Under the pieces are notes generated by a model. The model saw only the letters and a list, made by a program, of their open reading frames with translations. It ran no database searches and was not told where the DNA came from. DNA of 40,520 nt from Pararhodobacter zhoushanensis (GTDB lineage Bacteria; Pseudomonadota; Alphaproteobacteria; Rhodobacterales; Rhodobacteraceae): positions 1 through 40,520 of the forward strand of contig NZ_REEZ01000019.1 in NCBI RefSeq assembly GCF_003990445.1. Reading direction: 5' to 3'. Position numbers and translations under genes: made by a program. Below, one piece after another: positions 1 through 40,520 of this stretch. Numbering within the stretch: the first letter of the stretch is position 1; each line of letters begins with the position of its first letter.

Positions 1-77
1 TGAAGCTCAGAGCGAAACTCGCTTCTCGGTCAGTGCTGGGGAACCGGCGAAATCAATGGGGCGGAGACGGCGCATAC
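1..77. mobile_element. IS66-type element, right end (partial)
   Basis: Terminal fragment of an insertion sequence. Read on the minus strand from base 77 inward, it starts GTATGCGCCGTCTCCG and matches the start of the fragment at 40445 at 24 of 26 positions, forming the element's inverted repeat. Bases 78-85 (GGTGCACC) are the 8-bp target duplication, also found at 40437-40444. Ends starting GTA and an 8-bp duplication are typical of the IS66 family. The transposase genes are not in the window. The window starts inside the element, which sits in a sulfotransferase gene. Confidence 0.82.
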
Positions 78-85
78 GGTGCACC
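78..85. repeat. 8-bp target-site duplication of the IS66-type element
   Basis: GGTGCACC directly abuts the IS end here and is repeated at 40437-40444 against the opposite IS end. Joining the two flanks with a single copy restores the sulfotransferase reading frame. Confidence 0.82.
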
Positions 86-799
86 TATGTAAAAAATGTC
101 CTCTGGCAGCTAGATCACGGGGCACCGCACCCTGTCCCTAACCGGGTTCATGACAACGATGCGGACTTCGGCCGAGCGGGTGACAAAGGCTTCACCGCCG
201 AACAAATCCGCGAGAACGGGTACGCCTTCACGGTCTTGAGAAACCCGATCGAGCGCTTCCTTTCTTTGTATTTTGACAAAGTAGTTGGACCGGGTTGGCA
301 CAATTTCGTCAATCTTCGCGGTGTTTTGGTCGACTATCACCGTCTCAATCCAGACGCTGACACCGTTGAGGGACACCGCAGAAACTGTGAGATACTTATC
401 AACTGGATTGAGATGAGCCTTAATGGCGAGGCAGAGCTGAGCGCGGACTCCCACTGGACGCTTCAAAGCGACCGACTGCCTATCATGAAGCAGCTCGACT
501 TAAAATTATTGATGCTTGCCAATGTTGACACAACACTGAAGATGCTTCTTGAACCGCGCATTCCAGGGCTAGATCCGACGATACTCAAGGTCGAAAGAAA
601 CGAGTCACCCAAGCCCGTATCTCGCAGTCAGATCATGACAAAAGAGCTCCGAGAGTCGATTGCCAGAGTCTACAAGAGGGACATGTGGTTGACGTACATG
701 ACTTGGAAATACTGGAATAACGAGAAGCCGTCAAACTCGCGAGAAATACCGCGCACCAGTCAGATTTTTGATTATGCTGAGGCGGCCCTAGATTTGTAG
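86..799 (+). pseudogene. Sulfotransferase, 3' part (interrupted by IS66-type element)
   Basis: C-terminal 237 codons of a PAPS-dependent sulfotransferase (Sulfotransfer_2-like); the first 28 codons lie at 40361-40444 at the other end of the window. Joined, the sequence reads IPKCGCTYVKN, the 5'-phosphosulfate-binding loop, and here the 3'-phosphate site is visible as VLRNPIERFLSLYFDKV. An apparent start at 56 is inside the IS end and would make an artificial N-terminus lacking the PAPS loop, so I do not use it. The stop at 797-799 is 2 bp from an IS3 terminus. The enzyme would have transferred sulfate to a carbohydrate; the insertion very probably inactivates it. Confidence 0.8.
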
Positions 800-2292: not shown

Positions 2293-3294
2293 CTACCCCC
2301 GCTCCATCCGCTTGGTGATCCAGCCCAGAAAGGCCTTGTCCGGCGCGCGCAGGGTTTTGCGCCCCGAGGCTTCCCACATCGCCCGCCACTCGGCTTCCAG
2401 AGCGTAGATGTCCCAGCCGGGGGCCGCGGCGCGGGCGGCTTCCAGTGTCTCCGAGGCCAAGGGGCCAAGACCCGTCCCAAAGCCTGCGACCGGTCGGCGC
2501 GGGGTCACGCGGATGATGTCGCCGGGCATCTCTTCCAGCCGGTAGTCGGGCAGATTGTCGGCGGCGATCATGTCGCGGATCATCTTGCGAAACACCCGCG
2601 ACGGCGAGCCTGACCCCGATTTAAGATGCAGCAGCTCCAGCCGCACCCCCCAGTGCGCCTGCCGGCCGCAATGCTTGCGCGCCAGCTCGTAGATGCGCCG
2701 TTCCAGCGGTTTGCGCAGGCGGAAATAGTCGCGGCTGATGGTCAGCACCGATTTCGACAGCACCGCGCGGTACAGCCAGTCCGACAGCGTCACCGCGACC
2801 GAGATCATCCGCCCGCCCCGCGTCTTGCGCGCGATCTCCCAGCTTTCGATCAGGCCGAAGCCGCGCGTCGTCTCGATCCCGCCAGTCACGATGTTGGTGG
2901 TGATGCGCGTGCCCGCCAGCCGCTCGAAGGCCTGACACAGCCGGTTGTACCCGTCGCCCGAAGTCTCGCGGTTGGTCGACACCATGAGGTCATGCGCGCG
3001 CAGATGCAGGGTGCGGCTGATCGTGCGTCCCGCATTCACCGCCGCCATCAGCTGGCTGATGCAATAGATCAGGATGTCCTTGTCGTGGATCGTCGCCAGA
3101 CCGCGGACCGAGGGCGTCACGGTGATGGCTACATCGTTGTGACGATAGCTCAGGATGCGTAGATCGGGCCGGGTCGACAAAGAGAAGACCGGATGCTCCA
3201 TTGTGCCCAGATCATCCTTGGGCGAGGCATCGAAGATATCGCACAGGAAGAAATCCCGCTGCGGATGGCGGTCAGGAAGCAGAGCGCTGGTCAT
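2293..3294 (-). CDS. repA: Plasmid replication initiator RepA (RPA family)
   Basis: A 333-residue replication initiator of the RPA family (PF10134 type), which binds iterons at the origin and recruits the host replisome. Family hallmarks visible are RHPQRDFFLCDIFD near the N-terminus, GLATIHDKDILIYCISQL (about 65-82), STNRETSGDGYNRLCQAFERL, FGLIESWEI, and SRDYFRLRKPLERRIYELAR (about 195-215), a winged-helix-like segment. The start at 3294 has a GGAGG about 9 bp upstream. It is divergent from parA, with the presumed origin in between. This repA/parAB layout is one of the standard Rhodobacterales plasmid types; the compatibility subgroup (for example RepA-I) cannot be assigned without a phylogeny. 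Confidence 0.9.
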   Translation of the reverse strand: MTSALLPDRHPQRDFFLCDIFDASPKDDLGTMEHPVFSLSTRPDLRILSYRHNDVAITVTPSVRGLATIHDKDILIYCISQLMAAVNAGRTISRTLHLRAHDLMVSTNRETSGDGYNRLCQAFERLAGTRITTNIVTGGIETTRGFGLIESWEIARKTRGGRMISVAVTLSDWLYRAVLSKSVLTISRDYFRLRKPLERRIYELARKHCGRQAHWGVRLELLHLKSGSGSPSRVFRKMIRDMIAADNLPDYRLEEMPGDIIRVTPRRPVAGFGTGLGPLASETLEAARAAAPGWDIYALEAEWRAMWEASGRKTLRAPDKAFLGWITKRMERG

Positions 3295-3333
3295 CGCGGT
3301 GTCCCCTCCGTTTCCGCTGCTGTCCGGGCCGCG

Positions 3334-3695: not shown

Positions 3696-5120
3696 TTGCC
3701 GGAAACGGCGAACATGGAGCCTTTCGTGACCAGCGAGCAGAGCCTGCCCCCCTATTTTGGCATCCAGCCCGACGCGGCCCTGAGCGAGCTGGGCGGCCCT
3801 GTCGGCACCGGCAGTTTTCAGTCTCTGGCGCAGGCCTGCGGGCGGGGCCATGACGATCTGGTACAGCGCGGGCTGAATGAAAGCGGGCATCGCGAATTGC
3901 GGCTGTTCTCGACCTGGGAAATCACCCGCTACCTGATCCCGATCGCCCCCGGACATTTCCGCCGGGTGATCAAGGCCAACCCCGAGCTGCCGCAGGGCCG
4001 CAGCGAAAGCGAGGGCGGCGCGCGCTGGTTCAGTCTGGACGAGGTTCTACGCCTGCGCGCGCATTTCGCCAGCGAGGGCGCGCGCAGCAAGGAATATCAG
4101 CCCTACCGGCCCAAGGGCCTGCCCGCCAAGATCCTTGCCGTGGCGAACTTCAAGGGCGGCGTTGGCAAGACCTCGACGGCGGCGCATCTGGCAATGTCGG
4201 CGGCGCTCGATGGGTACAAGGTGCTGGTGATCGACCTCGACAGCCAAGGGTCCATGACCTCGATCTTCGGCAACCGGGTCGAGGATGAATGGCAAACCGT
4301 CTTCCCGCTGCTGGCGCGGCACTACGCGAAACATCTGCGCGCCGACAACCAGCGCCGTCTTGATCGCGGTGATGCGCCGATCCCGCTGGACGACCAGCTG
4401 GCCGATGCGCTGAAGATCACGTCCGACGAGGTCATCCAGCACACCCACTGGCCCAACATCGACCTGATTGGCGCGCAACTGAACCTCTATTGGGCCGAGT
4501 TCCAGATCCCCGTCTGGCGCATGGCCGCGCGGGGCTGGAAGCTGTGGGATGCGCTGACCGATGTGCTGGCCGAAGACGGGGTGCTCGACCGGTATGATCT
4601 GGTGATCCTCGATACGCCCCCGGCGCTGGGGTATCTGACGATCAACGGGCTGGCCGCCGCCGATATCCTGCTGGTGCCGACCGGGGCCAGTTTTCTGGAA
4701 TTCGATTCCACCGGCCGTTTCTTTGACATGCTCTACGCCACCTTCCAGTCGATCGAAGAGGGCGAGAACATGGCCGCCCGCGCGTTGGGCCGGCCCGAGC
4801 TGTCGTTCGAATGGGACGCGGTGCGGGCGGTGATTACCCGTTTCGACGGGGTGCAGCAGACCGAGATGGCCTCCTTGATGCAGGCCTGGCTGGGCCGGTC
4901 GCTGATGCCGTCACGCCAGGGGTTCACCGCGCTGATCGGGCAGGCCAGCGAGCAGGTCGCCGGGATCTACGAGGCCGATTACCGCGACTTCAACCGCGAG
5001 ACCTATATCCGAGGCCGCGAAACCTTTGACGAAACCTATGCCATGGTGAAGCGCCTGTTCATCGGGGCTTGGCGGCGCGACGAGCTGGCGCGTGAGGCCG
5101 AAGAAAAGGCCGCGGGATGA
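3696..5120 (+). CDS. parA: Plasmid partition ATPase ParA
   Basis: A 474-residue ParA-type Walker ATPase that, with ParB and a centromere, segregates the plasmid. An N-terminal region of about 135 residues carries a helix-turn-helix-like segment (TWEITRYLIPI), as in autoregulating ParA proteins. The deviant Walker A box is VANFKGGVGKTSTAAHLA (about residues 148-165), Walker B-like VLVIDLDSQGSMTS follows, and LVILDTPPALGYLTING is further on. The longest frame starts with TTG at 3696; an ATG at 3714 is an alternative start. Divergent from repA and upstream of parB, it is probably autoregulated through its N-terminal DNA-binding region. Confidence 0.9.
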   Translation: MPETANMEPFVTSEQSLPPYFGIQPDAALSELGGPVGTGSFQSLAQACGRGHDDLVQRGLNESGHRELRLFSTWEITRYLIPIAPGHFRRVIKANPELPQGRSESEGGARWFSLDEVLRLRAHFASEGARSKEYQPYRPKGLPAKILAVANFKGGVGKTSTAAHLAMSAALDGYKVLVIDLDSQGSMTSIFGNRVEDEWQTVFPLLARHYAKHLRADNQRRLDRGDAPIPLDDQLADALKITSDEVIQHTHWPNIDLIGAQLNLYWAEFQIPVWRMAARGWKLWDALTDVLAEDGVLDRYDLVILDTPPALGYLTINGLAAADILLVPTGASFLEFDSTGRFFDMLYATFQSIEEGENMAARALGRPELSFEWDAVRAVITRFDGVQQTEMASLMQAWLGRSLMPSRQGFTALIGQASEQVAGIYEADYRDFNRETYIRGRETFDETYAMVKRLFIGAWRRDELAREAEEKAAG

Positions 5121-5343: not shown

Positions 5344-5424
5344 CAGCGGTCGCCGTCCTCACCCGATGTTTGCCCTTCCGGGTGACGCTGTTCCCCTCAA
5401 GCCTCGCCTCGAAAGGACTGCCGC

Positions 5425-6501
5425 ATGGCCCGCAAACGCCTCAGCCTGACCGGACCCTTCGCCGCGCCGCCCGCGGGCGATCCGCTCGACACCTCTTCGC
5501 TTCCGCCCCGGCTGGCAACCCGGGCGATGGGCCTTGGCGTGCCGCCCATCGCCCGGGTTGCCAGTGACGCGTCGGCCACGGCGGCTCTGGACGAGATGAC
5601 TCAGGCCTGGGTCGAAGCGCAGGCCGCCGGGCGGATGGTGCAGAGCCTGCCGCTCAAGGCAGTTCATGAGACTTGGCTGGTGCGCGACCGGTTGTCTCTC
5701 GACAATGAGGAGATGGCCGATCTGATCGAGTCGATCCGCGACCGGGGCCAGCAAGTGCCGATCGAGGTGGTTGCGCTGGAAGATGGACGCTTTGGCCTGA
5801 TATCGGGCTGGCGGCGTCTGCGCGCGCTCAGGGTGCTGTCACAAGAGCACGATGGTGCGCGGTTCGGCCAGATTCTGGCATTGCTGCGCAAACCGGCAGG
5901 TCCGGCCGAGGCGTATCGCGCCATGGTCGAAGAGAACGAGATTCGCGCCAACCTATCCTATTACGAGCGCGCCCGCATTGCCGCTCGTGCCGCCGAGGCC
6001 GGAGCGTTCGAGGATGCGCGCGCTGCAGTCAACGCGCTGTTCGCAGCGGGCAGCCGGGCCAAACGCTCGAAGATCGGCAGCTTTCTGGTGCTGGTCGAGG
6101 CGCTGGATGACAAGCTGCGCTTCGCCGAGGCGATTCCCGAACGGCTGGGTCTGGGGCTGGCCAAGGCGCTGGACGAGGTGCCGGGTTTTCGTGACCGGCT
6201 GCGCGACCGGCTGCGTAAAGCAATACCCGACAGCGCGGAAAAGGAGTTGGCGCTGTTGACGCGCGCGCTGGTCTCGAATCGACCTGCTCCCCCGGTAGAA
6301 GCCCTTAAGAAAACAGCATTATCTGAGGAAAGTCGCAACCGCGAAGAGTTAATGCCTGATCCAGGCCTGACCGAGCCGCAAGACAAGGTCTCGATTCTAG
6401 GGCCAAAGCGTGTTGTCGAAGAATTTCGCGTTTTCTGCCGCGCGCACAACTTGACCCTCTGGCAAGGCCTTGAAGACCTGATGTCCACACGAAGGAGTTG
6501 A
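5425..6501 (+). CDS. parB: Plasmid partition protein ParB
   Basis: A 358-residue ParB/RepB-family centromere-binding protein. The ParB N-terminal domain is visible as LSLDNEEMADLIESIRDRGQ (about residues 90-110) and LISGWRRLRALRVL (about 130-145). The conserved NTP-binding box appears as VEENEIRANLSYYERARIA (about 168-187), in place of the usual ENxxRxdLspiE. A helix-turn-helix region follows (RAKRSKIGSFLVLVEALDD). The C-terminal 60 residues are poorly conserved. The start ATG at 5425 follows a GAAAGGA ribosome-binding site. It is codirectional with parA, with the parS-like palindromes between the two genes. Confidence 0.9.
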   Translation: MARKRLSLTGPFAAPPAGDPLDTSSLPPRLATRAMGLGVPPIARVASDASATAALDEMTQAWVEAQAAGRMVQSLPLKAVHETWLVRDRLSLDNEEMADLIESIRDRGQQVPIEVVALEDGRFGLISGWRRLRALRVLSQEHDGARFGQILALLRKPAGPAEAYRAMVEENEIRANLSYYERARIAARAAEAGAFEDARAAVNALFAAGSRAKRSKIGSFLVLVEALDDKLRFAEAIPERLGLGLAKALDEVPGFRDRLRDRLRKAIPDSAEKELALLTRALVSNRPAPPVEALKKTALSEESRNREELMPDPGLTEPQDKVSILGPKRVVEEFRVFCRAHNLTLWQGLEDLMSTRRS

Positions 6502-7852: not shown

Positions 7853-8028
7853 ACCAAATCTGAAATGTGCTTTCGAGCGTGCGGTGCAGACCATGCGCTG
7901 ACTCCGGCACCGCCCTCCCCCGGTTTGGGTCCTTCCCGCCGAAACCCTGCACGCGGGTAATTCGCGCCCCGGTTCGGGTGGGGGCTGGGTGATCCGCTGG
8001 GGGTGTGAATAGGGGTTGTGATTGGGCA

Positions 8029-8320
8029 ATGGCCGAAACTCCGGCGCTTTTTCCGGTCGACGTCGCTGACGATCTGCGCGGCATGCTGGCCGCGATTCCC
8101 TTGCCCGAGGGTGTCGCCGACGTCCACATGAATAAGGAAGAAATCGAGTAGGCGATCGGCAAGACGGTCAACGCGGTTGCGAAGTGGACGCGCACCGGAA
8201 TGCCGGTTGTGCAACGGGGTGGGCAGGGTTGCTCTTATGTTTACCGGCTGTCGCATTGCCGGGCGTGGGTCAACGATCCCGAGGCCCGCGAAAAGGCGGC
8301 GTCGGTGCACAACGCAGTAC
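8029..8320 (+). pseudogene. Phage terminase small subunit-like (DUF1441/Nu1-type) relic
   Basis: From ATG 8029 the frame reads MAETPALFPVDVADDLRGM and, further on, MNKEEIE, then meets TAG at 8149-8151. After this stop the same frame continues with a clear winged-helix segment: AIGKTVNAVAKWTRTGMPVV, then QRGGQGCSYVYRLSHCRAWV. This resembles small terminase subunits of the Nu1/DUF1441 type, in which Glu-Gln-Ala-Ile would be expected at the stop, so a CAG to TAG change is likely. The frame is lost near 8320. It is a prophage relic, not an active gene. Confidence 0.5.
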
Positions 8321-8374
8321 AGGTCAAGACGCGGCATTGCGCGGGCGCTACAAGGCGCGCGGGGGCAATCCGCG

Positions 8375-8512
8375 TCATGCGCCGGGTATGCTGCAATCGC
8401 CATCCGGTTCTTCTACGATACGGACACCTTTCCACAGGGTGTGCCCAAAGTCACCGCCATTGTGCGCGGCAAAAATGACATTTTCGACCCGCGCACCGGC
8501 GAGCGGGGCTAA
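8375..8512 (+). pseudogene. Phage tail protein fragment
   Basis: The last 44 residues before the stop at 8510-8512 read FFYDTDTFPQGVPKVTAIVR and GKNDIFDPRTGERG. This resembles the internal 'G.P...v.v.G.kvyDPRTG' block of phage tail-tip (J-like) proteins. No start or remaining domain is present. It abuts the terminase-like relic, implying a large deletion in a former prophage. Confidence 0.4.
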
Positions 8513-8654
8513 GTCCAGACGCAGAACGCACTGATGACGGCTTCTTTGCCCTCGCAATGGCCGAGGTCGTGTGTGTCGGCTGATACCTGCCGAGAAAAGC
8601 CTTCGGGCTTGAGGCTTGAGTGTCGAAACGCCGAAGAATCCTGATGTTTCCCTG

Positions 8655-8682
8655 TTGTCTTCGACCTCACTATGCTTAAGAT
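8655..8682 (+). promoter_or_regulatory. Candidate promoter of the rhamnose operon
   Basis: TTGTCT (8655-8660), a 16-bp spacer and TAAGAT (8677-8682) lie 34 bp upstream of rfbC. The surroundings are AT-rich compared with the flanking DNA. The match to the sigma70 consensus is moderate. Confidence 0.35.
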
Positions 8683-8716
8683 AATGACCTATAAATGCAG
8701 ATATTTTTAGATCGTT

Positions 8717-9283
8717 ATGAACATAATTGAAGCAGCTCTGCCCGGGATCTTGATACTGACTCCTCGCCGTTTCGGCGACACGCGTGGGTGGTTTAGCGAG
8801 AGCTGGAACCGTCAGGCGTTGGAAGCTACTGGCCTGCATCTCCCTGAATTTGTCCAGGATAACCATTCTCTCTCGCGCGAGGTTGGAACAGTGCGTGGCT
8901 TGCACTTCCAGTCTCCGCCACATGCGCAGGACAAGTTGGTCCGTTGCGGTCGCGGTCGGATCTTTGACGTGGCGGTTGATGCTAGACGCGGCAGCCCGAC
9001 ATATGGTCGTTGGATGGGCGAAGAGCTAAGTGCGGAGAATGGCCGTCAGCTCTGGGTCCCCGCAGGTTTCCTGCATGGTTTTATGACACTCGAAGCGGAT
9101 TCTGAGATCGTCTACAAATGCACGGATTATTACGCGCCTGAGTGTGACGGTTCGGTGCGCTGGGACAGCTGTGGCATTGACTGGCCTCTGTCCGGGGCCA
9201 CTCCAGAAATTTCGGAGAAAGATGCTCAGTCCCAGACCTTCGCGGATTTCATCAGTCCCTTCACCTACAGTGATTTGCCATGA
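8717..9283 (+). CDS. rfbC: dTDP-4-dehydrorhamnose 3,5-epimerase
   Basis: A 188-residue cupin-fold epimerase, third enzyme of dTDP-L-rhamnose synthesis, converting dTDP-4-keto-6-deoxyglucose to dTDP-4-keto-L-rhamnose in the cytoplasm. Conserved blocks are [33 protein letters not shown] (His of the catalytic pair), [35 protein letters not shown] and [19 protein letters not shown]. Length is normal. It is first in the operon, and its stop overlaps rfbB by four bases (ATGA). The ribosome-binding site is weak, in an AT-rich leader. Confidence 0.95.
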
Positions 9284-10329
9284 AGCTTCTTGTAACCGGG
9301 GGGGCCGGGTTCATCGGTTCAGCTGTGGTGCGGCTTGCTGTTGCGCGCGGTCACTCGGTGGTCAATGTCGATGCCCTGACCTATGCAGCCGACCTGCGCA
9401 ACGTAACCGAGGCGGCGGCCAGCCCGCTCTATGTTTTCGAGCAGGCCGATATTCGTGTTCGCTCAGCGTTGGATCGGATCTATGCTGTTCACCAGCCGGA
9501 TGCGGTGATGCATCTGGCGGCCGAAAGCCATGTTGATCGCTCGATAGATGGTCCGGGAGACTTCGTCGAGACTAACATCACTGGCACCTACCAGATGCTG
9601 GAAGCCGCACGCGCTTACTGGGTGAGCCGGGGCAAACCCGAGAAGTTCCGTTTCCATCACATCTCTACCGACGAGGTCTTCGGCTCGCTGCCGGCCGATC
9701 CTTCGGTGAAATTCACCGAAGACACTCCCTATGATCCCCGCAGCCCCTATTCCGCGTCCAAGGCCGCCTCGGATCACCTGGTCCGCGCTTGGCACGAAAC
9801 CTATGCCCTGCCTGTGGTGCTGACCAATTGCTCTAACAACTATGGGCCTTTCCATTTTCCGGAAAAGCTGATCCCGGTGATCATCCTGAATGCGCTCGCC
9901 GGCAAGCCGCTGCCTATCTACGGTGACGGGTCGAACATCCGCGACTGGCTTTATGTCGAGGACCATGCCGACGCTTTGCTCTTGGTAGTTGAGAACGGTG
10001 AACTGGGTCGCAGCTATAACATCGGCGGCGAAAACGAGCGTACCAACCTCGAGCTTGTGAATTCGCTCTGCGCGATTCTCGATCGGTTACAACCAAAGCC
10101 GCAGGGATCTTATTCTGACCAGATCACCTTCGTCACCGACCGGCCCGGCCATGACGTACGCTATGCCATCGATCCGTCGCGGATCCGGGCTGAGCTGGGC
10201 TGGCGCCCCTCGGTAACGCTAGAGGAGGGCCTCGAGCGGACTGTACGCTGGTATCTCGACAACGAGGTTTGGTGGAGGCCCCTGCAGGATCGCCACGGAG
10301 TCGGGCAAAGGCTGGGAGTGCGAGGATGA
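9280..10329 (+). CDS. rfbB: dTDP-glucose 4,6-dehydratase
   Basis: A 349-residue extended short-chain dehydrogenase, second step of dTDP-L-rhamnose synthesis (dTDP-glucose to dTDP-4-keto-6-deoxyglucose, using bound NAD). Visible are the Rossmann motif [14 protein letters not shown] (7-20), [24 protein letters not shown] (catalytic Thr-Asp-Glu), [19 protein letters not shown] (YxxxK), [18 protein letters not shown] and [15 protein letters not shown]. Length is normal. It overlaps rfbC upstream and a 70-residue unknown frame downstream (ATGA at 10326), so it is translationally coupled at both ends. Confidence 0.96.
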
Positions 10330-10538
10330 GTGTGGCGAATGGATTCGCGCTTTCTCCGTACTACGCTCAAGGTGATGGTTTCTTCAACCATACGGATCGT
10401 CGGCCCTATCACTCCACGCAAGTGGCATTGCCGGATGGCGCGCGTGACTTGCCCTCGCGGATCGATTCCCTTGGCCACTTCAACCACCCATGTAACCAGC
10501 AGACAGTATTGGCATTGAAGTCCGAGGGATCATCATGA
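10326..10538 (+). CDS. Hypothetical 70-residue protein inside the rhamnose operon
   Basis: I do not recognise this protein. It starts at ATG 10326 with GCGAGG just upstream, overlaps the rfbB stop by four bases (ATGA), and ends at 10538 in a second ATGA overlap with rfbD. The sequence opens [20 protein letters not shown] and is rich in His, Asp and Pro. It has no membrane segment, signal peptide or Cys pair. Standard rfb operons need no gene here. The overlaps at both ends favour real translation, but the frame could be a decayed insert kept in frame to preserve coupling. An opposite-strand frame at 10161-10487 is less well placed. Confidence 0.45.
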
Positions 10539-11404
10539 CCGAACGGTTTTTGTCTGACCCGGTTTTGGTATTTGGCAAAACTGGCCAGGTTGCGACTGAG
10601 TTACAGCGCTTGCTACCAAAAGCAATCTTTCTGGGCCGCGATATGGCCGACTTGGGTCAGCCTGAACGCTGTGCACAGGCCATCCACGAACATGGTCCCG
10701 CGGCTGTAATCAACGCAGCTGCTTGGACCGCGGTTGACAAGGCGGAAACGGAAGAAGCGGCGGCCATCGTCATCAATGGTGATGCTCCGGCGGCAATGGC
10801 GAAGGCCTGCGTCGCGCTTGGCATTCCCTTAATTCATATCTCAACTGACTACGTCTTTGATGGAATGGGTGATACGCCCTTCGCCCCAAATCATCCGACC
10901 GCTCCCTTGGGGGCATATGGCCGATCGAAGCTGCACGGCGAAGAGGGAGTGCGAGCTGCGGGAGGCATTCATGCGATCTTGCGCACTTCTTGGGTGTTTT
11001 CAGCACATGGCAACAACTTTCTCAAGACGATGCTGCGGCTGGGCCGCGAGCGCGAGGCGCTGACCATCGTCGCTGACCAGATTGGCGGTCCCACCCCGGC
11101 TAGCGCCATCGCCGAGGCCTGCATCCGCATTGTTCATGATTTGATCGCCGATGCGGGGAAGAGTGGAACATATCATTTTTCTGGCGCGCCCGACACCAGT
11201 TGGGCCGATTTCGCGCGCGAGATCATGGTGCAGGCCGGGTTGGCCTGTACGATTACCGACATCCCAACCAATGCCTACCCGACACCCGCTCGCCGTCCGG
11301 CGAATTCGCGCATGGATTGCTCGAAGTTAGCGGTGTTCGGTCTTGAACGTCCCGACTGGCGGGCTGCAACCACTTTGGCATTGACCGAGCTAGGAGCGAT
11401 CTGA
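10535..11404 (+). CDS. rfbD: dTDP-4-dehydrorhamnose reductase
   Basis: A 289-residue NAD(P)H-dependent reductase catalysing the last step to dTDP-L-rhamnose. Conserved features are the Rossmann motif VFGKTGQVATELQRLLP (about 13-29), VINAAAWTAVDKAETEE, HISTDYVFDGMGDTPF, the YGRSKLHGEE active-site segment (YxxxK), ILRTSWVFSAHGNNFLKTML and a C-terminal ARRPANSRMDCSKL motif. Length is normal. It starts in an ATGA overlap with the preceding small frame and overlaps rfbA by one base (TGATG). Confidence 0.95.
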   Translation: MTERFLSDPVLVFGKTGQVATELQRLLPKAIFLGRDMADLGQPERCAQAIHEHGPAAVINAAAWTAVDKAETEEAAAIVINGDAPAAMAKACVALGIPLIHISTDYVFDGMGDTPFAPNHPTAPLGAYGRSKLHGEEGVRAAGGIHAILRTSWVFSAHGNNFLKTMLRLGREREALTIVADQIGGPTPASAIAEACIRIVHDLIADAGKSGTYHFSGAPDTSWADFAREIMVQAGLACTITDIPTNAYPTPARRPANSRMDCSKLAVFGLERPDWRAATTLALTELGAI

Positions 11405-12297
11405 TGACACATCGTAAAGGGATCATCTTGGCTGGCGGGTCGGGCACACGGCTGTATCCGATCACCATCGGTGTATCCAAGCAGCTGCTGCCGATCTACG
11501 ACAAGCCGATGATCTATTACCCGCTATCGGTGTTGATGCTGGCGGGTATCCGCGAAATCGCTGTGATTACTACTCCGCAAGACCAAGACCAGTTTAAGCG
11601 CACGCTGGGGGACGGATCGCAGTGGGGCATCGCCCTGACCTATATCGTCCAGCCCTCGCCGGACGGGCTGGCCCAAGCCTTTATCCTAGCGGAAGATTTC
11701 CTCGCCGGTGCACCCTCAGCGCTGATCTTGGGCGACAACATCTTTTTCGGCCATGGCTTGCGTGAGACGCTGCTGCGCGTGTCGATGCGTACAGAGGGTG
11801 GCACGGTTTTTGGCTATCACGTTGCCGATCCCGAGCGTTATGGCGTTGTGGCCTATGGCGCCAAAGGGCAGGTGACGCAGATTGTGGAAAAACCGTCCAA
11901 CCCGCCATCAAACTTTGCGGTGACTGGACTTTATTTTGTTGATGGTACGGCCCCGCAGCGGGCCCGGGCGGTCAAGTCTTCGCCGCGCGGCGAGCTGGAA
12001 ATAGTGGATCTTCTTGAAAGCTATCTGAAGGATGGCACGCTGGACGTGGCACGAATGGGTAGAGGGTATGCTTGGTTCGATACCGGCACACATGGCAGCC
12101 TATTGGATGCTGGAAACTTTGTGCGCACGCTGCAGGTGCGCCAAGGAACGCTGGTCGGAAGTCCCGACGAGATCGCGTTCAACAAGGGATGGCTGGACGT
12201 GGCCGATCTGGAAAGTACCGGGCACGCGATGGCAAAGAACGATTATGGCAAGCATCTGCTTGAAGTGGCACGAGAAGCTAGCCACCATCCACTATGA
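11404..12297 (+). CDS. rfbA: Glucose-1-phosphate thymidylyltransferase
   Basis: A 297-residue nucleotidyltransferase, first step of the pathway (glucose-1-phosphate plus dTTP to dTDP-glucose). The signature GGSGTRLYPITIGVSKQLLP is at residues 11-30, followed by YDKPMIYYPLSVLMLAGI, LILGDNIFFGHGL, VVEKPSNP-like VEKPSNPPSNFAVTGLYFVD and GRGYAWFDTGTHGSLLDA. Length is typical of RmlA. The stop overlaps the next gene by four bases, which places the giant glycosyltransferase in the same operon. The order C-B-(x)-D-A differs from the common B-D-A-C order. Confidence 0.96.
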   Translation: MTHRKGIILAGGSGTRLYPITIGVSKQLLPIYDKPMIYYPLSVLMLAGIREIAVITTPQDQDQFKRTLGDGSQWGIALTYIVQPSPDGLAQAFILAEDFLAGAPSALILGDNIFFGHGLRETLLRVSMRTEGGTVFGYHVADPERYGVVAYGAKGQVTQIVEKPSNPPSNFAVTGLYFVDGTAPQRARAVKSSPRGELEIVDLLESYLKDGTLDVARMGRGYAWFDTGTHGSLLDAGNFVRTLQVRQGTLVGSPDEIAFNKGWLDVADLESTGHAMAKNDYGKHLLEVAREASHHPL

Positions 12298-15200: not shown

Positions 15201-17552
15201 CTGTCCCGCGCGCCGAACATTGCGGGAGACCTATCGCTTTTTGACAGCAATTTTTCAGGAGACATTCGTGACTATGAAACACTGGTTTCAGCTGCGGCTC
15301 TATCTCCAGATTCGGCTGACTTTCCCTTAATTAGGACAGTCTTCCCTTCCTGGGACAATGACTCGCGTCGTCCAGGGCGGAGCACCATTATTGCAAACTC
15401 GACGCCTGAAAAATTCGCTGTTTGGCTGGACGAGGCGATCAGATACAGCGAAATTAATCCCATCTATGGCGAACCCATAGTTTGTATCAACGCTTGGAAC
15501 GAATGGGCCGAAGGCGCGTATCTCGAACCTGACGTCCATTTTGGGAGCGGATACCTTAACGCGATGTCTCGCGTGCTGCACGGCGTAAACCGTGACGAAG
15601 GCGTGGCCAAGCACACTCGTATCTTGCTTGTCGGCCACGATACTCTAGCATTTGGCGCACAAACTCTGCTTTGCCGAATCGGATCGACACTAAAGGAACG
15701 CTTTGGCGTCGACGTGACGTTTCTGGTTATCGACAGCAACACGCACGACGGTTCGTTCAAGACGACAACGCAATTGATGCAATCAATTGGGGAACTCGTT
15801 TTTTTGGATCAGATCGGTGAAAGAGAAATCAATGGTTTTCTGAGAGAGCAGGGCTTCTCCTTTGCTATCACGAACACCACGCCTTCTGGCCGTGTTGTGC
15901 CCGCTTTGAAAAAAGCGGGCCTCACGGTCATCTCTTTGATCCATGAATTGCCGAAGCTGCTGAAATCCTATGATTTGGTCACCGAAGCTGAGGCGATTGC
16001 GCATGAGGCCGACCATGTGATCTTCCCGGCCGAGATCGTCCGGGATGGGTTCGAAGGATTTGCCGGGACCATTGCCCACAAGGCCGAGATCTTTCCACAG
16101 GGCCTTTATAACACTCGCGTCTTGGAAACCCCGTTGGGCGACGACGGTTTGCGCGCGGAATTAGGGCTGGGCATCAACGCGAAGATCGTTTTGGGTGTCG
16201 GCTATGCCGACCTGCGCAAAGGCATCGACCGTTTCGTGAGCGCGGGCCTGTCACTATGTTCGACGCATGACGATATCGTTTTCCTGTGGGTCGGTGCCCC
16301 GGCAGGAGAGGCAATCCATTGGTTCCAACCGGAAATTGACGCTTCTGGTCTCGGTGATCGGATACGAATCCTGGGGCATCGCGAAGACATCGCGCGCTTC
16401 TTTGCCGCAGCCAACGCGTTCTATTTGTCCTCACGTGAGGATCCCTTCCCCTCGGTCGTGCTCGAAGCTCTGGCTGCCGGGTTGCCGGTCATCGGGCACA
16501 AAGGCTGCGGCGGGTGCGATGCGCTGATTGATAAACACGGAACGCTGGTCGACAAGTCCGACCCAATGGTGCTAGCCGGTGCGCTGTTGGTTGCGGTCAG
16601 CACATCTAACAGCCGTGCCGTGAATGCCCGCCGCGCCGACATCGAACAGAATTATAGCTTCCCTGAATATGTGTTTGGGCTGATTCAGCGGCTGATGCCC
16701 GACCTGCCTAGCGTCTCGGCGGTAGTACCTAACTACAAATATGAAGCCTATATCGGTGAACGTTTGCGCAGCGTTTTTGACCAGACTATGCCGCTGCGCG
16801 AGGTAATCGTGCTCGACGATGCCTCGCCCGACAATAGTGTCGCTGAAATCCAACGTGTTGCGGAGGCTGCGGGGCGGAAGATTGACCTGCACGTTAACGC
16901 CAAGAACAGTGGTTCGCCCTTTCCACAATGGCGCAAAGGAGTCGAGCTGGCACAGGGCGAATATGTCTGGATCGGGGAGGCCGACGACCTAGCGTACCCA
17001 ACATTTGTCGCGCGGTTGATCGACCAGATGCGTCTTGCAGGCAGTGTGCTTGGTTTTACAGACAGCAACCAGATCGACGAGAATGGAGCGCCGCTTGGCG
17101 ACAGCTATCGCCACTATATCAACCAAATCGAACCGGGTGCCTTCGACAAGCCCTTTGACATGGATGCCCCCGAATTCCTAGCGCGCTTTTTAGCGGTCAA
17201 GAACGTGATCCTGAACGTCTCAGGTGTGATCTTTCATCGGCAGACGCTGCTTGACGCCTTCGACGCAGTGGGGGAAGAGTTGTATTCCTACAGCGTAGCC
17301 GGCGATTGGTGTCTGTACGCGGAAATCTGTGCCCAGCAGGGCAACCGCGTCAGCTTCATCCCCGAACCCCTGAACACCCATCGGCGTCACCGCGTTAGCG
17401 TGACGCATGCCCTGAAAGTAGATAAGCACTTGTCAGAGATTGCAGAGATGCACAACCGAGTTGGTTCACGCATTTCTTTGAGCCGAGACACTATCGAGAA
17501 ACAAAAAAAACACTATACCCAATGCGAAGTACACTTGGCGAAGAATGGCTAG
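12294..17552 (+). CDS. Giant multidomain glycosyltransferase (GT-A-like, WbsX-like, GT4, GT2)
   Basis: A 1752-residue modular enzyme fused from parts usually found as separate proteins. Residues about 1-250 resemble a GT-A fold; about 250-620 is a beta-rich linker I cannot name. About 626-710 holds two 'DVAAAGMNPFLHY-CVAGHREGRAL'-type repeats common in roseobacter glycosyltransferases. About 745-1095 is a WbsX/GH99-like domain (VLAYYLPQFHTVPVNDESWG, MWANENWTRTWDGSEN, INAWNEWAEGAYLEP). About 1105-1460 is a GT4 domain (GYADLRKGIDRF, SREDPFPSVVLEALAAGLPV with the EX7E motif). About 1470-1752 is GT2 (VVPNYKYEAYIGERL, EADDLAYP). No signal peptide or membrane segments are visible. Its ATGA overlap with rfbA suggests it builds a rhamnose-containing oligosaccharide in the cytoplasm. 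Confidence 0.88.
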   Translation: MTPAINSVSVGIISWEGMEQAAALIAAQAAAVAADVVVIHSDRADTRPQASGRWIHVSQELFFGRKFDVLLSSIMPDKALLLIQADASCVDWGGLICRFAQVLSERPSVGLWVPRIDNTPFDVAIVADGTAEDNLIHVTQTDAIVLGITPNVVTRLGALDYSENNLGWGIDWAAIAFCARKGLEVVCDLSQRVTHPKSRSYNSDTADYQMAHFIEQLNPADRALIQRLRGTIKLQVQRRFAMSHVDMPLPFRKTDMTNPSGNEPMSLLEQVSFLLVQHGKILINLPAGQTASTLLANGERSEAIERSGSSPLPFVLDFNEDAQEGIYKTLTTGQEWSCPRQSTINFAFDPEIGPVRTELIVPLELPSTFGDLHLCFGAAVHRADVDLLIQWHDDVDDGYTEEMWIKLDPQFRGAFAVGDYQKIDVRIPDTGWPRTLRVSLCYWGRKDEEDGEPAVVLCTRPYLMPSAQMASTSSHMVVITDGEIHGQLHEIAVPPTDGDVTLIVGERAYPLLQKPPHTARLVLEEGRLVASSDAFGRYSLVINNRPTGLLWLGPEKQQLSISNDLLDNVSTRIELCDPTGNIVCASYSPMIFSKSKIHTTLEEPQVPEVLQQPDETVAPETVQSDQEHPDAWAIAEFFEQDFYLASFLSDERPKDPKSHYLTKGWKEGRDPAPWFSTWHYLSMHQDVAAAGMNPFLHYCVAGHREGRALTQLGRQPGKSVFDAQAFAVAPGPYFEEFDPTIGVGRRKRAKVLAYYLPQFHTVPVNDESWGTGFTEWRNLPRALPRFYGHIQPRIPRDLGCYDLSEGDVMRRQIAMAKAAGLFGFCFYHYWFDGERVLETPVERLIADSTLDFPFCLMWANENWTRTWDGSENEIILGQNYREEDDIPFIDDVARHMKDPRYIRVDDRPVFFIYRPGHIPNAKERLAEWRDIFRERHNLDPLIFNAQAFGDNDPRVFGLDGAIEFPPHKVLSRAPNIAGDLSLFDSNFSGDIRDYETLVSAAALSPDSADFPLIRTVFPSWDNDSRRPGRSTIIANSTPEKFAVWLDEAIRYSEINPIYGEPIVCINAWNEWAEGAYLEPDVHFGSGYLNAMSRVLHGVNRDEGVAKHTRILLVGHDTLAFGAQTLLCRIGSTLKERFGVDVTFLVIDSNTHDGSFKTTTQLMQSIGELVFLDQIGEREINGFLREQGFSFAITNTTPSGRVVPALKKAGLTVISLIHELPKLLKSYDLVTEAEAIAHEADHVIFPAEIVRDGFEGFAGTIAHKAEIFPQGLYNTRVLETPLGDDGLRAELGLGINAKIVLGVGYADLRKGIDRFVSAGLSLCSTHDDIVFLWVGAPAGEAIHWFQPEIDASGLGDRIRILGHREDIARFFAAANAFYLSSREDPFPSVVLEALAAGLPVIGHKGCGGCDALIDKHGTLVDKSDPMVLAGALLVAVSTSNSRAVNARRADIEQNYSFPEYVFGLIQRLMPDLPSVSAVVPNYKYEAYIGERLRSVFDQTMPLREVIVLDDASPDNSVAEIQRVAEAAGRKIDLHVNAKNSGSPFPQWRKGVELAQGEYVWIGEADDLAYPTFVARLIDQMRLAGSVLGFTDSNQIDENGAPLGDSYRHYINQIEPGAFDKPFDMDAPEFLARFLAVKNVILNVSGVIFHRQTLLDAFDAVGEELYSYSVAGDWCLYAEICAQQGNRVSFIPEPLNTHRRHRVSVTHALKVDKHLSEIAEMHNRVGSRISLSRDTIEKQKKHYTQCEVHLAKNG

Positions 17553-17585
17553 CTTTCTAACTTAATATCAAAAGGAGCAACGGGA

Positions 17586-18434
17586 ATGGAAAACCTTGTT
17601 GGCAAGGCAATTTCAAACCTAGGAATTTCACTCCCTGATGGTCTCATTGATATATCGGACATCCTTGCACGTCTACACATAAAAAAAGTCTACATTATTT
17701 CCATGACGGGTAGGTGTGGATCAACGTGGCTCGCCTCCGAACTTGCTTGCTTTGGGAACGCTGGGCGGCCGAGTGAGTATTTTTCCGAACAGCGCATACC
17801 TCACGAACATAAAGACATTGATTTTTCTAGCGTTGAGGAATTTCTAGAATCTTTGATACAAAAAGGAAGAACCGGTGAAACGTTTGGTTTTAAAATCGAT
17901 GCTAATCGTCTTCGTTGGCTTTCAGAAATCATCGACATCAAGGCGTCTTTTTCTAGTTTAGAGCCCGTTTGGATCGATATGCGCAGAAGAAATATAGTCA
18001 AGCAAGGTATTTCATTTCTGCGGGCTAAACAGACTGGCGTATGGCATGTGTTTCAGGGATCAGGCAGATCTGTTGATGCCTCCAAAATACAAAACGGCGC
18101 ATTCGAAGATAACGCTCTTTGGTCCGAAATAAACAGGATCAGAGATGCTGAAGAATGGCTTGATAGTTTCTATCGTTCAAATGACATCAGGCCGATGAGG
18201 ATAGTTTACGAGGACATGGTGGACTCAAGCGCCATTATTATCCGGCGAATTCTTTTTAGAATTGGCTGGAATGATGTCCACGGTAAAATTGAAGATAAAG
18301 AAGGTGAGGGGGTGATCAAAACAATTAAAATTGGGGACGATAACTATTTGGCTGGCGAGCTTGAGTTTGTTTCGAGAAATATCGCCGCTATCGAACGCCT
18401 GTTGAGCGAAAGGGATATTCATGACGGGTATTGA
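17586..18434 (+). CDS. Stf0-type sulfotransferase
   Basis: A 282-residue PAPS-dependent sulfotransferase resembling the Stf0 family (trehalose 2-sulfotransferase type). The PAPS loop is IISMTGRCGSTWLASELACF (about 37-56). It is followed by GRPSEYFSEQRIP, matching the family's G-R-P-x-E-Y-F block, then FGFKIDANRLRWL, and IDMRRRNIVKQGISFLRAKQ with TGVWH. RIVYEDMVDSS is near the C-terminus. It likely sulfates a saccharide made by the preceding glycosyltransferase, 33 bp upstream; a ribosome-binding site (AAAAGGAG) precedes ATG 17586. It is markedly richer in A+T than its neighbours, suggesting separate acquisition. The next gene overlaps it by 14 bp. Confidence 0.82.
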   Translation: MENLVGKAISNLGISLPDGLIDISDILARLHIKKVYIISMTGRCGSTWLASELACFGNAGRPSEYFSEQRIPHEHKDIDFSSVEEFLESLIQKGRTGETFGFKIDANRLRWLSEIIDIKASFSSLEPVWIDMRRRNIVKQGISFLRAKQTGVWHVFQGSGRSVDASKIQNGAFEDNALWSEINRIRDAEEWLDSFYRSNDIRPMRIVYEDMVDSSAIIIRRILFRIGWNDVHGKIEDKEGEGVIKTIKIGDDNYLAGELEFVSRNIAAIERLLSERDIHDGY

Positions 18435-19086
18435 GGAAGAACTTGAGCGCGCGAAAGATATTTGGGCCGCCTCTGAATTCTACACAAATGCTGAGAACTC
18501 TACAGAATACTTTTGGGATCCTGAAACACCTTTTGGGCGTCTTCTTGAAGATATAGACCTGAAGGGATATGTTCTTGAGTTCGCGTGTGGTCATGGGCGA
18601 CACACCGAGATTCTTGTTCGACATGCAAAAAAGGTCATATTTTCAGATCTCATCCATAGAAATGTGGATCTGACTTTGAGCAGGCTCGCCGGCTCAAAGA
18701 ACGCTGTTGGTTATCATTCCGATGGCAAGTCGTTAAGCTTTTGTAAAAGCTCGAGTATTGATACAGTTTTTTCATTCGGAGATATGATTTTTATGTCTCC
18801 GGATTTGATTGAACTTTATCTGCGCGATATCTATCGCGTACTCAAAGTTGGCGGGCGAGCAATCTTGCATCACTCAAATGTCGATGCTGACCTCGCCTCG
18901 TTTTCCGCACTCGGTGGTCGCTTCAGGATGACCTGCGAAAAATTTGCCTCGATGTCCGAGGATGTCGGTTTTTCGGTAGTTCGCCAAGCTACAGTTGATC
19001 ATAGTCTTGCGCCGGCACTGGATGGATTAACTATTGTTGAGAAGCCGGGCTTGAAGCTGAAAATGAGGCGCTCTAAGAGACGCTAA
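18421..19086 (+). CDS. Class I SAM-dependent methyltransferase
   Basis: A 221-residue methyltransferase. Motif I is VLEFACGHGRHTEILVRHAK (about 50-69), the acidic strand-2 end is VIFSDLIHRNVDL, a motif II-like stretch is IDTVFSFGDMIFMSP, and the post-motif is IYRVLKVGGRAILHHSN. It overlaps the sulfotransferase by 14 bp, so the two are translationally coupled and share the same A+T-rich composition. The context suggests O-methylation of a sugar or of a small acceptor linked to the saccharide; the substrate cannot be read from sequence. No membrane segment is seen. Confidence 0.75.
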   Translation: MTGIEEELERAKDIWAASEFYTNAENSTEYFWDPETPFGRLLEDIDLKGYVLEFACGHGRHTEILVRHAKKVIFSDLIHRNVDLTLSRLAGSKNAVGYHSDGKSLSFCKSSSIDTVFSFGDMIFMSPDLIELYLRDIYRVLKVGGRAILHHSNVDADLASFSALGGRFRMTCEKFASMSEDVGFSVVRQATVDHSLAPALDGLTIVEKPGLKLKMRRSKRR

Positions 19087-19149
19087 AAATGGAAGATTGG
19101 GCTTTCGCTCTTCTTTTTCTGGAACGTTAAGAACAAGGCAAGAGCAAAC

Positions 19150-19977
19150 GTGGAAATGGTATCCCCTATCTTGATTCTCGGCACTGGGCGCTGTGGATCT
19201 ACTTATCTGCAAACCTCTCTCTCTGGTGTCAGTGATATTTGGATATGGGGTGAGCATGACGGTATCCTTCGCGGGCTATTCACTTGGGCGCGCAACACAC
19301 GCAGCAGCAAGGCGCTCAACACTTTCAGCTTTCCGTATGTCGGCGAGGATCCTTACGAAACGCTCCAGCGCGACGGCACCCGAGCGGCGTGGGTTTGCCC
19401 TTTCGACAAGTCTGACATCGAAGAAATCGAACGCAACATTATTATCGAATTGTTTTCGCGTCGATTGCCTGATGGGAAGAAACGTTGGGGTTTCAAGGAA
19501 ATACGGTACGGCCCCAATTCCGGAGTCCCTGAGCGAATGCTGACGCTCTTTCCTGCGGCAAAGATTATTCACGTCGTGCGCGACCCTAGGACATCGATCT
19601 CGAGCTCGATCCGGGCCTGGAACCGGGAGGTATTCGATGCCGGTACGGATACCGGCGCGCTGGAGAACCAAATTGCCGGTCTTGTCGCATCTTATGTTGA
19701 TAGATGGGTGGGGACGACACAGTACTTCGAAGCGCTTTGTGCGACGAATGCTGACCAGGCGCGCACAGTTAAAATCGAGCAAGCTGACGACGAATTCCCT
19801 GCTATTCTGGATTTTCTGGAGGCCGAACCAGTTAGGTCATCCGTTGAAGTTGCTAGCGAGACCAACCCCGCTCGCAACGACCCTGAAGTATCGAAGTTAA
19901 TCGATAGGTATTTAGAGGAGGCGATGGCCGAAAATAGTGTCCTTGCAGAACTCTCTAGAAAGCTTGGTTACTCTTAG
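19150..19977 (+). CDS. Sulfotransferase (Sulfotransfer_3-like)
   Basis: A 275-residue sulfotransferase. The N-terminal PAPS loop is ILILGTGRCGSTYLQTSL (about 7-24). The 3'-phosphate site is AKIIHVVRDPRTSISSSIRA (about 137-156), and RWGFKEIRYGPNSGVPERM lies before it. The frame opens with GTG at 19150 and an ATG follows at 19156; either start is possible. It lies 63 bp after the methyltransferase and overlaps the next sulfotransferase by one base (TAGTG). Its base composition is closer to the plasmid average than that of the two preceding genes. The acceptor is probably the polysaccharide or an oligosaccharide intermediate. Confidence 0.8.
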   Translation: MEMVSPILILGTGRCGSTYLQTSLSGVSDIWIWGEHDGILRGLFTWARNTRSSKALNTFSFPYVGEDPYETLQRDGTRAAWVCPFDKSDIEEIERNIIIELFSRRLPDGKKRWGFKEIRYGPNSGVPERMLTLFPAAKIIHVVRDPRTSISSSIRAWNREVFDAGTDTGALENQIAGLVASYVDRWVGTTQYFEALCATNADQARTVKIEQADDEFPAILDFLEAEPVRSSVEVASETNPARNDPEVSKLIDRYLEEAMAENSVLAELSRKLGYS

Positions 19978-21197
19978 TGCCGCCCCCGATACTAACCCTT
20001 ATCCTCGGCGTTCATCGCTCTGGCACCTCACTCCTCTCACATGGGTTGGCGGCGATGGGGGCTTCATTGGGGGCGTTCGATGATACTCGCGATCCCGACA
20101 ATCCAGACGGCTATGCTGAACACCCATTGATACGTGGGTTCAATGATAGGTTGCTGGGCTATCTAGGCGCGTCGTGGGACAATTGGGGGTTTCGGGCCAG
20201 CAGCGTCGATTTTGACACACCCGAACTGGGGCCTTGGAAGGACGAGGCTGTCCAGATGTTGCGGGATACATTTGCAGGGCCTGGGCCCTTCGTCCTCAAG
20301 GATCCTCGCCTCACCACCCTGGCCCCTTTCTGGGAAAGGGTGGTGCCTGCCGCGGGGTTCTACCTGCGGCGTATCGTTATTTTGCGGGATCCCGCCGAGG
20401 TTGCCGAGAGCCAGGTGCAGCGCGTCGCGCGTCGTCCGCAGGAGTTTCCAGTTATTGCTGCGGCCGAACCGATGGCCGCGCTTTGGGTCGTCTCAATGCA
20501 CGAGGTTTTGTCAGCCTTGGGCGACGATAACACCATGGTGGTCAGCCATGCCGATCTGCTGCGTAATCCAGCTCAGGTGCTGGCCGCCATCGCGCCCTTC
20601 GCCGGGTTGTCTCCCAGCGTCGAAACGGTTGCGGCTTTTGCTCTCGACGGAGTCAAACCATCTTTGTACCGTGCCCATGTGTCCGAGGTGTCGAAGGGCC
20701 CTTGGATGGCCGCCGCACAGGCATTCGTTGCTGATTTTGGTCCAGCCTGCGGTCCGCGGTCGCTGACCCGCTCCGAAGCCCGTGCAATCATTGACAAGCA
20801 GACCGGTCTGGTACCGCTGATGTCAGGGCTTAGCGCGGCACGCGACAGTATCTTTCGGATGCGAGAGAGTCAGGCCTTGCACCAGCAGACTGTGACCGAC
20901 ATCACCCACTATGTTTGGATACTGGCACCTTTGATAGCACATGCTCCTTCAGCGCAACTGTCCAGTGCGATCAAAAAAGCTCGTGAATTGGCTGAGGAAA
21001 CGCCGCTGGAACGGTCCAGCTTCGCCTTTGGTCACAGTCTGACGCGCTTGTATATAAGTGCCGGTCTCTTGGATGAAGCCGCGAACTGGCTGGACCGCCT
21101 GCGCCCACATTTTGGGCATGTCCCGGCCTATAGCGCACTTGAGCATACCTTGGCTGAGGCGCGCAAGGCCCAAGATACGCCGTTCTCGGCCTCCTAG
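19977..21197 (+). CDS. Sulfotransferase with C-terminal helical extension
   Basis: A 406-residue sulfotransferase-family protein beginning at GTG 19977, whose first base is the last base of the preceding stop. The PAPS loop is LILGVHRSGTSLLSHGLAAM (about 6-25). DTRDPDNPDGYAEHPLI follows, then FVLKDPRLTTLAPFWERV (about 105-122) and RRIVILRDPAEVAESQVQRV (3'-phosphate site, about 130-149). After about residue 270 there is an additional helical region with TPR-like spacing (SFAFGHSLTRLYISAGLLDE, then AANWLDRLRPHFGHVPAY). Such proteins are frequent beside roseobacter glycosyltransferases. The extension may mediate protein contacts. It is last in this gene run, before IS wreckage. Confidence 0.78.
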   Translation: MPPPILTLILGVHRSGTSLLSHGLAAMGASLGAFDDTRDPDNPDGYAEHPLIRGFNDRLLGYLGASWDNWGFRASSVDFDTPELGPWKDEAVQMLRDTFAGPGPFVLKDPRLTTLAPFWERVVPAAGFYLRRIVILRDPAEVAESQVQRVARRPQEFPVIAAAEPMAALWVVSMHEVLSALGDDNTMVVSHADLLRNPAQVLAAIAPFAGLSPSVETVAAFALDGVKPSLYRAHVSEVSKGPWMAAAQAFVADFGPACGPRSLTRSEARAIIDKQTGLVPLMSGLSAARDSIFRMRESQALHQQTVTDITHYVWILAPLIAHAPSAQLSSAIKKARELAEETPLERSSFAFGHSLTRLYISAGLLDEAANWLDRLRPHFGHVPAYSALEHTLAEARKAQDTPFSAS

Positions 21198-21430
21198 CAC
21201 GGTCGGTTCCTGCGGTTCGACATGTTCTGATCTCCTCGTCTTGGGGATCAGCAGACCTCAGATCGTAGCTTCCGTCACTGTCCGATTTTCGGGGGGTAGC
21301 CCAGTGATTTGCGCCGGGGGCAATGATCTGCCACGGGATTTTTATTCCACCGACGATTAGAGCCCGGCTCAACTTGAGGACGGACAATGAAGCGAACGAG
21401 ATTCACAGACGAGCAGATCATCGGGATCGA
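21198..21430 (+). pseudogene. IS3-family left end with OrfA start, truncated
   Basis: From ATG 21387 the frame begins MKRTRFTDEQIIGI, the N-terminus of IS3-family OrfA, and is cut after 14 residues at about 21430 by an IS66-derived sequence. The 190 bp upstream to the sulfotransferase stop hold no gene and probably include the IS3 terminus; I could not fix its exact end. Confidence 0.55.
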
Positions 21431-22156
21431 CGTTGTTCATTTTGCAGGTCTGCAAGAGTGTGGCGATGGTGGCCCATGTGCGACCGCCACTATCCGAACC
21501 GGCGAACAGGCTGTTCTTTCTCGTGATTGTCTGGGGTCTGATGGCGCGCTCAACGATGTTGGAGTCGAACTCGACAAGGCCGTCGGTCAGGAAGCGCTCG
21601 AAGATCTCGCGCCGGGAGATGGCATAGCGCAGGGCCTGAGCCAGCTTCGATTTTCCCGGGATGCGGGGCAAGGTCTGCTGCCAGAGGGCGAACAGATCGG
21701 CGTCGATGGGTGCGGAGGCGGCCTGGCGTGCACCTCGGGGCCTTGGCCACGAACCTCTGCCTCAAGCTTCCAGAGCTCGGTCATCCGCTCGACCGTGGCG
21801 GTGGCGATTTCGGAGGCGCCGGCAACATGGAGCTCGAAGAAGCGGCGCCGACTGTGGGCCCAACAACCCGCCAGGCGCAGGCTGTCGTTGCCCCCGTTCT
21901 TGCGTATCAGCTTGTTGTAGGCAGCATAGCCGTTTACCTGCAGGATACCGCGGTAGTTGCCGAGGTGACGGCGCACGCAGTCGCCGGACTGGCTGTCCTC
22001 GAAGCGATAGGCAACCAAGGGCGGGCCACTGCCGCCGAAGGCGCTGTCGTCGCGGGCATAGGCCCAGAGCCAGGCCGTCTTCGTGGCGTTGGTGTCGGGG
22101 GCGAGGGGCTCCTCGTCCGTCCAAAGCAGCTTCGTCCGACGCGTCATCACGCACCC
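21425..22156 (-). pseudogene. IS66-family transposase TnpC, truncated and frameshifted
   Basis: The minus strand encodes the C-terminal half of an IS66 transposase. First come ATKTAWLWAYARDDSAFGG, YRGILQVNGYAAYNKL and LAGCWAHSRRRFFELHVAG. After a frame change near 21735-21745 come LPRIPGKSKLAQALRYAISR, NIVERAIRPQTITRKNSLFA and LLQTCKMNNVDP. The N-terminal half, including the zinc-finger-like region, is missing beyond about 22156, and the C-terminus runs directly into the IS3 OrfA start. TnpA and TnpB are absent. Whether it is related to the IS66 ends at the window borders cannot be seen, as no overlapping segment exists. Confidence 0.78.
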
Positions 22157-40360: not shown

Positions 40361-40444
40361 GTGATAAGTATTGAGAATCGACTCTTTTGCTCAAGCAAGT
40401 ACCCTGAGGTGCAGTACCTAGTCATACCAAAGTGCGGGTGCACC
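40361..40444 (+). pseudogene. Sulfotransferase, 5' part (interrupted by IS66-type element)
   Basis: First 28 codons of the sulfotransferase whose remainder is at 86-799. It starts at GTG 40361 behind a strong ribosome-binding site (GGAGAGG, 4 bp upstream) and reads to the PAPS-binding loop VQYLVIPKCGCT, where the IS66-type element is inserted directly after the 8-bp duplication. Joined across the window ends, the protein has 265 residues and continues YVKNVLWQLDHG. The insertion falls in the cofactor-binding loop, so any protein made is inactive. Confidence 0.8.
40437..40444. repeat. 8-bp target-site duplication, second copy
   Basis: GGTGCACC immediately before the IS66-type left end; matches 78-85. 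Confidence 0.82.
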
Positions 40445-40520
40445 GTAAGCGACGTCTCCGCCCCATTGATGTTCCGCTTGCGGTCGCCCGCTCGGTGGCG
40501 CTGTCGACTGGCGTTTGCGG
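40445..40520. mobile_element. IS66-type element, left end (partial)
   Basis: Starts GTAAGCGACGTCTCCG and agrees with the inverted complement of bases 52-77 at 24 of 26 positions. The GTAA terminus and 8-bp duplication are IS66-family traits. Only 76 bp are inside the window, nearly the same as the 77 bp of the other end. No transposase sequence is included. Confidence 0.82.

Follow-up and report, generated by a model that had tools for sequence, protein, structure and literature searches.

Contig ends of a probable circular RepA plasmid in Pararhodobacter zhoushanensis lie within an IS66-type insertion that interrupts a sulfotransferase gene

The stretch of DNA analysed here (the window; 40,520 nucleotides from Pararhodobacter zhoushanensis) is the complete contig C11 of an assembly of 56 contigs totalling 4.83 Mb. 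It contains a replication and partition module, a set of dTDP-rhamnose genes and, at its two termini, the parts of one sulfotransferase gene, each followed outwards by a short IS66-type end (Table 1). Apart from the rhamnose genes, the cargo comprises glycosyltransferases, a polysaccharide pyruvyl transferase, a nucleotide-sugar dehydrogenase and an acyltransferase. The frame at 12294-17552 (+) encodes a single polypeptide of 1,752 amino acids with WbsX, Glycos_transf_1 and Glycos_transf_2 domains. Three additional sulfotransferase-family genes (17586-18434, 19150-19977 and 19977-21197, all +; Stf0, and Sulfotransfer_3 twice) are located among the polysaccharide genes, so that the polymer or glycolipid encoded by the plasmid may be sulfated. 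Beside RepA, a frame at 1649-2389 (-) with a C-terminal BrnA antitoxin match could represent a toxin-antitoxin pair or a remnant of one. Two rve integrase-core transposase frames, apparently remnants, lie near the contig ends (841-1173 and 38711-39439, both -), the latter within a region matching an IS481 transposase annotated in Sulfitobacter.

Table 1 Features of the window on which the analysis is based
Feature	Position	Strand	Evidence and remarks
Left IS66-type end (tnpA side, by homology)	1..77	-	Apparently cut at the assembler word size; inverted repeat 52-77; the identical 77 bases terminate C4 and C13
Target-site duplication GGTGCACC, 8 bp, left copy	78..85		Flank comparison
Sulfotransferase, 3' part (Sulfotransfer_2), 237 codons and stop	86..799	+	PF03567, E 7.9e-10 on window 56-796
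Replication initiator RepA	2293..3294	-	PF10134, E 1.8e-96; sole match in the readable genome
ParA-type partition ATPase	3696..5120	+	AAA_31, E 2.2e-30; NCBIfam partition_RepA below its cut-off
ParB-type partition protein, weak	5425..6501	+	PF02195, E 1.2e-5; TIGR03454, E 1.2e-18; below curated cut-offs
rmlC, rmlB, rmlD, rmlA (dTDP-rhamnose)	8717..12297	+	TIGR01221, TIGR01181, TIGR01214 and TIGR01207, each above its curated cut-off
Sulfotransferase, 5' part from GTG 40361, 28 codons including the target duplication	40361..40436	+	Joined translation; own-genome query match 40361-40447
Target-site duplication GGTGCACC, 8 bp, right copy	40437..40444		Flank comparison
Right IS66-type end (tnpC side, by homology)	40445..40520	+	76 bases; inverted repeat 40445-40470; the same bases terminate C8 and C4

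The window carries the RPA initiator and the ParA/ParB functions of RepA-type Rhodobacterales plasmids, with ParB recognized only below the cut-offs. At the DNA level, the best 20 of 256 matching records, from plasmids of Phaeobacter, Marinovum, Cereibacter and Alloyangia, have 78-79% identity to the RepA-ParA region (~2 kb within 2497-5100); Phaeobacter accounts for 78 of the 256. In megablast searches, no plasmid record covered at least 80% of window bases 1-20,000 or of 20,000-40,440. The Roseobacter-group RepA-I exopolysaccharide or 'biofilm' plasmids (for example pInhi_D69 of Phaeobacter inhibens T5, and Phaeobacter plasmids of 65-69 kb) are similar to the window in the DNA of RepA-ParA but carry other cargo. 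PMC4062626 describes rhamnose and polysaccharide genes together on the RepA-I plasmid of P. inhibens, and the rml, polysaccharide and sulfotransferase-family genes of the window resemble that rhamnose plasmid.

The two termini of the window belong together. Their inverted repeats are identical at 24 of 26 positions, while the best 26-mer match between the two 160-base ends after letter shuffling (61 shuffles) was 18, which bears out the proposal of an earlier note, made from the bare sequence, that 1-77 and 40445-40520 are the inverted-repeat ends of one element. The same octamer, GGTGCACC, borders the element on both sides, again as had been noticed; since it is palindromic, it lengthens the inverted repeat to arms of 34 nt (52-85 and 40437-40470) that are 94% identical. 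The overhangs into the element have the sizes originally reported, 77 bases on the left and 76 on the right.

Joining the flanks without the element and without one copy of GGTGCACC yields a 265-codon open frame that starts with the GTG at 40361, includes VIPKCGCTYVKN and ends with the stop codon at 797-799. The residues at the junction, PKCGCTYVKN, form what we take to be the PAPS loop. The joined protein aligns without a gap at the junction to homologues with 43-48% identity, in agreement with the earlier claim that the junction restores a sulfotransferase. By tblastn, it matches L081 (47% over 253 columns), L083 (43% over 256) and L084 (43% over 248) without internal stops, and one of the six aligned homologues, L082, has a single internal TGA. 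The plasmid collection returned one record, from Octadecabacter sp. SW4 (43% over 96% of the query), which is probably the same record as L083. A sulfotransferase match at E <=0.001 was obtained in 252 of the 295 genomes of the family draw, most of them partial among the matches listed, and in the species-genome collection ten stretches fitted the sulfotransferase pattern and none was confirmed. The genome itself gave three matches, namely the two gene halves and a third scoring far below them. An intact copy of the gene is absent from the 21 readable contigs of the 56. Because the insertion sits in the PAPS-loop codons, it has probably abolished the function of the sulfotransferase.

The element is present at further contig termini. 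Its left end is found on C11, at the start of C4 and at the end of C13; its right end is found on C11, at the end of C8 and at the end of C4. We compared the flanking octamers in all nine left/right pairings: three pairings match at 8 of 8 positions (C11 with C11, GGTGCACC; C4 with C4, TCTCGAAG; C13 with C8, AATACGGC), the other six match at 1-3 of 8, and each element end is used once. An 8-bp target duplication, as reported for IS66 in PMC6778807, is therefore found at all three copies, with three different octamers. These unique matches are fully explained if one element inserted three times and produced a different duplication on each occasion, and by this pairing C11 closes on itself, C4 closes on itself and C8 joins C13. 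Judged by the duplications, three separate insertions would be the simplest arrangement. The presence of RepC on C4 is consistent with C4 being a second plasmid. No gene was recognized in the open frames listed at the C4 junction. The joined frame of C8 and C13 matches a REP-associated tyrosine transposase, and we do not count it as a second restored gene, since the family model ends near the junction (residue 134 of 141) and shows only that the frame continues.

The overhangs point to the assembler as the cause of the break. The 21 readable contigs have 42 ends, and the outermost 200 bases of each were set against those of the others; the remaining 35 contigs (<=2,702 bases) are read as N. 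An exact stretch of at least 30 bases is shared by 43 pairs of ends: 77 bases in 17 pairs, 76 in 12, 75 in 10, and shorter stretches in four (56, 55, 30 and 30). No pair exceeds 77 bases, a ceiling which indicates that the overhang length was set by the word of the assembler, at a guess one of the SPAdes kind. The right overhang comprises 77 element bases on C4 and 76 on C8 and C11; the latter two contigs share the flanking C, so that their common word is this C plus 76 bases, that is, 77. The 76-base stretches that pair C4 with C11 or C8 are what one would predict for a fork at which two of the three copies have a flanking base in common. A direct join of the C13 and C53 ends was rejected, as they have no suffix-prefix overlap. 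The end of C6 and the start of C8 (G000) have a suffix-prefix overlap of 55 bases, which suggests a possible direct join.

Its relatives indicate what the element is. Its inverted-repeat ends match annotated IS66 elements, as expected of a member of this family. Over all 77 bases, the left end shares 83% identity with three IS66 elements on Paracoccus liaowanqingii plasmids, in which tnpA starts 91 bases in. Two of the P. liaowanqingii copies (plasmids NZ_CP040757 and NZ_CP040759) are 2,706 bp long each, are bordered by the duplications AGAGTACG and CCTTAGAC, and are annotated with a transposase in the tnpA position, TnpB and an IS66 family transposase. The relative in Puniceibacterium sediminis (NZ_FZNN01000005), likewise complete, is 2,714 bp long and has GAAACACT on both sides; its TnpA, TnpB and TnpC have identities of 60%, 91% and 88% with their Paracoccus counterparts. 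At its tnpC-side end, this copy is 89% identical to the right end of our element over 47 columns. In the complete relatives, such ends thus bound an IS66-type element of ~2.7 kb with tnpABC. The window element shares with the IS66 elements of P. liaowanqingii and P. sediminis the start of the terminal repeat, GTATGCGCCGTC(T/C)CCGCCCCATTGAT, and the 8-bp target duplications. However, its right end can be aligned to the P. liaowanqingii elements over 26-40 columns only, and its left end to the P. sediminis element over 29-31 only, so on sequence grounds the ends appear too divergent for these to be the same IS.

More fragmentary relatives were also found. In Pseudorhodobacter ferrugineus, a remnant whose left end is 97% identical to ours leads into the beginning of a tnpA frame that terminates after 20 codons. 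The right-end match in Cereibacter azotoformans stands next to a gene annotated as IS21 transposase, beyond which lies a C-terminal tnpC fragment; no IS66 gene is annotated alongside, and the locus reads as an IS66 element broken by IS21. With the own genome counted, 14 of the 295 genomes of the family draw gave matches to the right end and 11 gave matches to the left end, many of these matches being short (20-40 bases) and possibly due to chance. One genome of the draw, G051, has a left end and a right end in facing orientation, separated by 2,221 bases. Within the 21 readable contigs of the own genome, a search for the IS66 transposase (PF03050) returned only a broken and different remnant in the window. 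This remnant, at 21423-22129 (-), is split over two frames that resemble parts of TnpC from P. liaowanqingii (37% and 47% identity), and its DNA is 89% identical to a Frigidibacter mobilis plasmid.

We consider it highly probable that the window is a circular RepA/ParAB plasmid that was opened by the assembler inside one of three ordinary IS66-type copies, the one interrupting the sulfotransferase gene. The plasmid would consist of ~40.4 kb of unique sequence and one IS66-family copy of ~2.7 kb with tnpA-tnpB-tnpC, the interior and length being taken from the relatives. This copy would have inserted into the PAPS-loop codons and thereby duplicated GGTGCACC, and there would be two further copies with identical ends, one on C4 and one linking C8 to C13. 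A short-read de Bruijn assembler (the type being deduced) with a word of 77 would have failed to thread the three copies, leaving contigs that stop one word inside the element and the collapsed interior as a separate short contig. Two contigs, C16 (2,702 bases) and C14 (2,500 bases), are of a size that fits a collapsed IS66 element; both are read as N, and we give them no weight. The earlier proposal of an assembly stop inside a multicopy IS, with a word size near 77, thus finds support in the six matching contig ends, the unique pairing of duplications, the 77-base ceiling and the 2.7-kb relatives. Its companion claim, that the window is probably a circular plasmid, likewise stands on the RepA-ParA module, the weak ParB, the matching duplications and the restored gene; the last two make a closed circle strongly likely, and together the data argue strongly for a circular plasmid of a Roseobacter-group relative.

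Matching duplications show that the two flanks adjoined each other at the time of insertion; they need not do so now. Hence C11 could today be fused to the replicon of C4 or of C8-C13 through homologous recombination between IS copies, a co-integrate for which the contig data would be identical to those for separate circles. There is precedent for such events in Agrobacterium, where PMC6778807 reports that IS66 copies can recombine later and swap flanks, leaving unmatched flanking octamers. Nevertheless, C11 and C4 carry separate replication genes (a RepA-ParA set and RepC, respectively), and the duplications are most simply read as three separate insertions, so we regard a present-day fusion as improbable.

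The element could instead be a miniature, non-autonomous one, present in three short copies (~153 to <500 bp) that were mobilized in trans by an IS66 transposase, with the collapsed contig lost to a length filter. The shortest contigs have 501 bases, so anything below ~500 would be missing from the assembly, and no complete IS66 transposase is present in the 21 readable contigs of the 56. We rejected the latter as support, however, since the 35 short contigs read as N make this absence uninformative. The specific suggestion of a 153-bp IS66-ended element is not supported: 153 bp corresponds to twice the word size and is an artefact of the overhangs, which would equal the word size at any length of the element. 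Moreover, all three complete relatives have the full length given above, the facing ends in G051 lie more than 2 kb apart, and paired reads normally span short repeats. We therefore deem miniature copies very unlikely, and attach the same slight chance to the version in which a short IS66-ended non-autonomous element has recently spread to three sites, its transposase since lost or residing in one of the contigs read as N. It is scarcely credible that the window is a linear piece of a larger replicon with ends that agree through chance or contamination, given the 8-of-8 duplication, the restored frame, the six matching contig ends and the fact that, once the element ends of C4, C8 and C13 are set aside, no other end among the 42 shares at least 30 bases with an end of C11; no support for it was found in these data.

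With the circular plasmid opened inside an ordinary IS66-type copy as the preferred reading, the main use of these results is in closing the plasmid. Matching 8-bp duplications at word-length overhangs reveal the partner contig ends, and the draft can be closed on paper; at the same time, a word-size overhang can be mistaken for a miniature element, which calls for caution. The biology is ordinary, a multicopy IS breaking the short-read assembly of a plasmid, and the plasmid is one more RepA/rhamnose polysaccharide plasmid with its sulfotransferase gene interrupted by an IS. The same type of break is seen in the assembly of isolate 3-2031-G (L104, L107 and L108; CANMQJ NODE contigs), in which three contigs break off within a related IS66 end, after 77, 77 and 79 bases of it.
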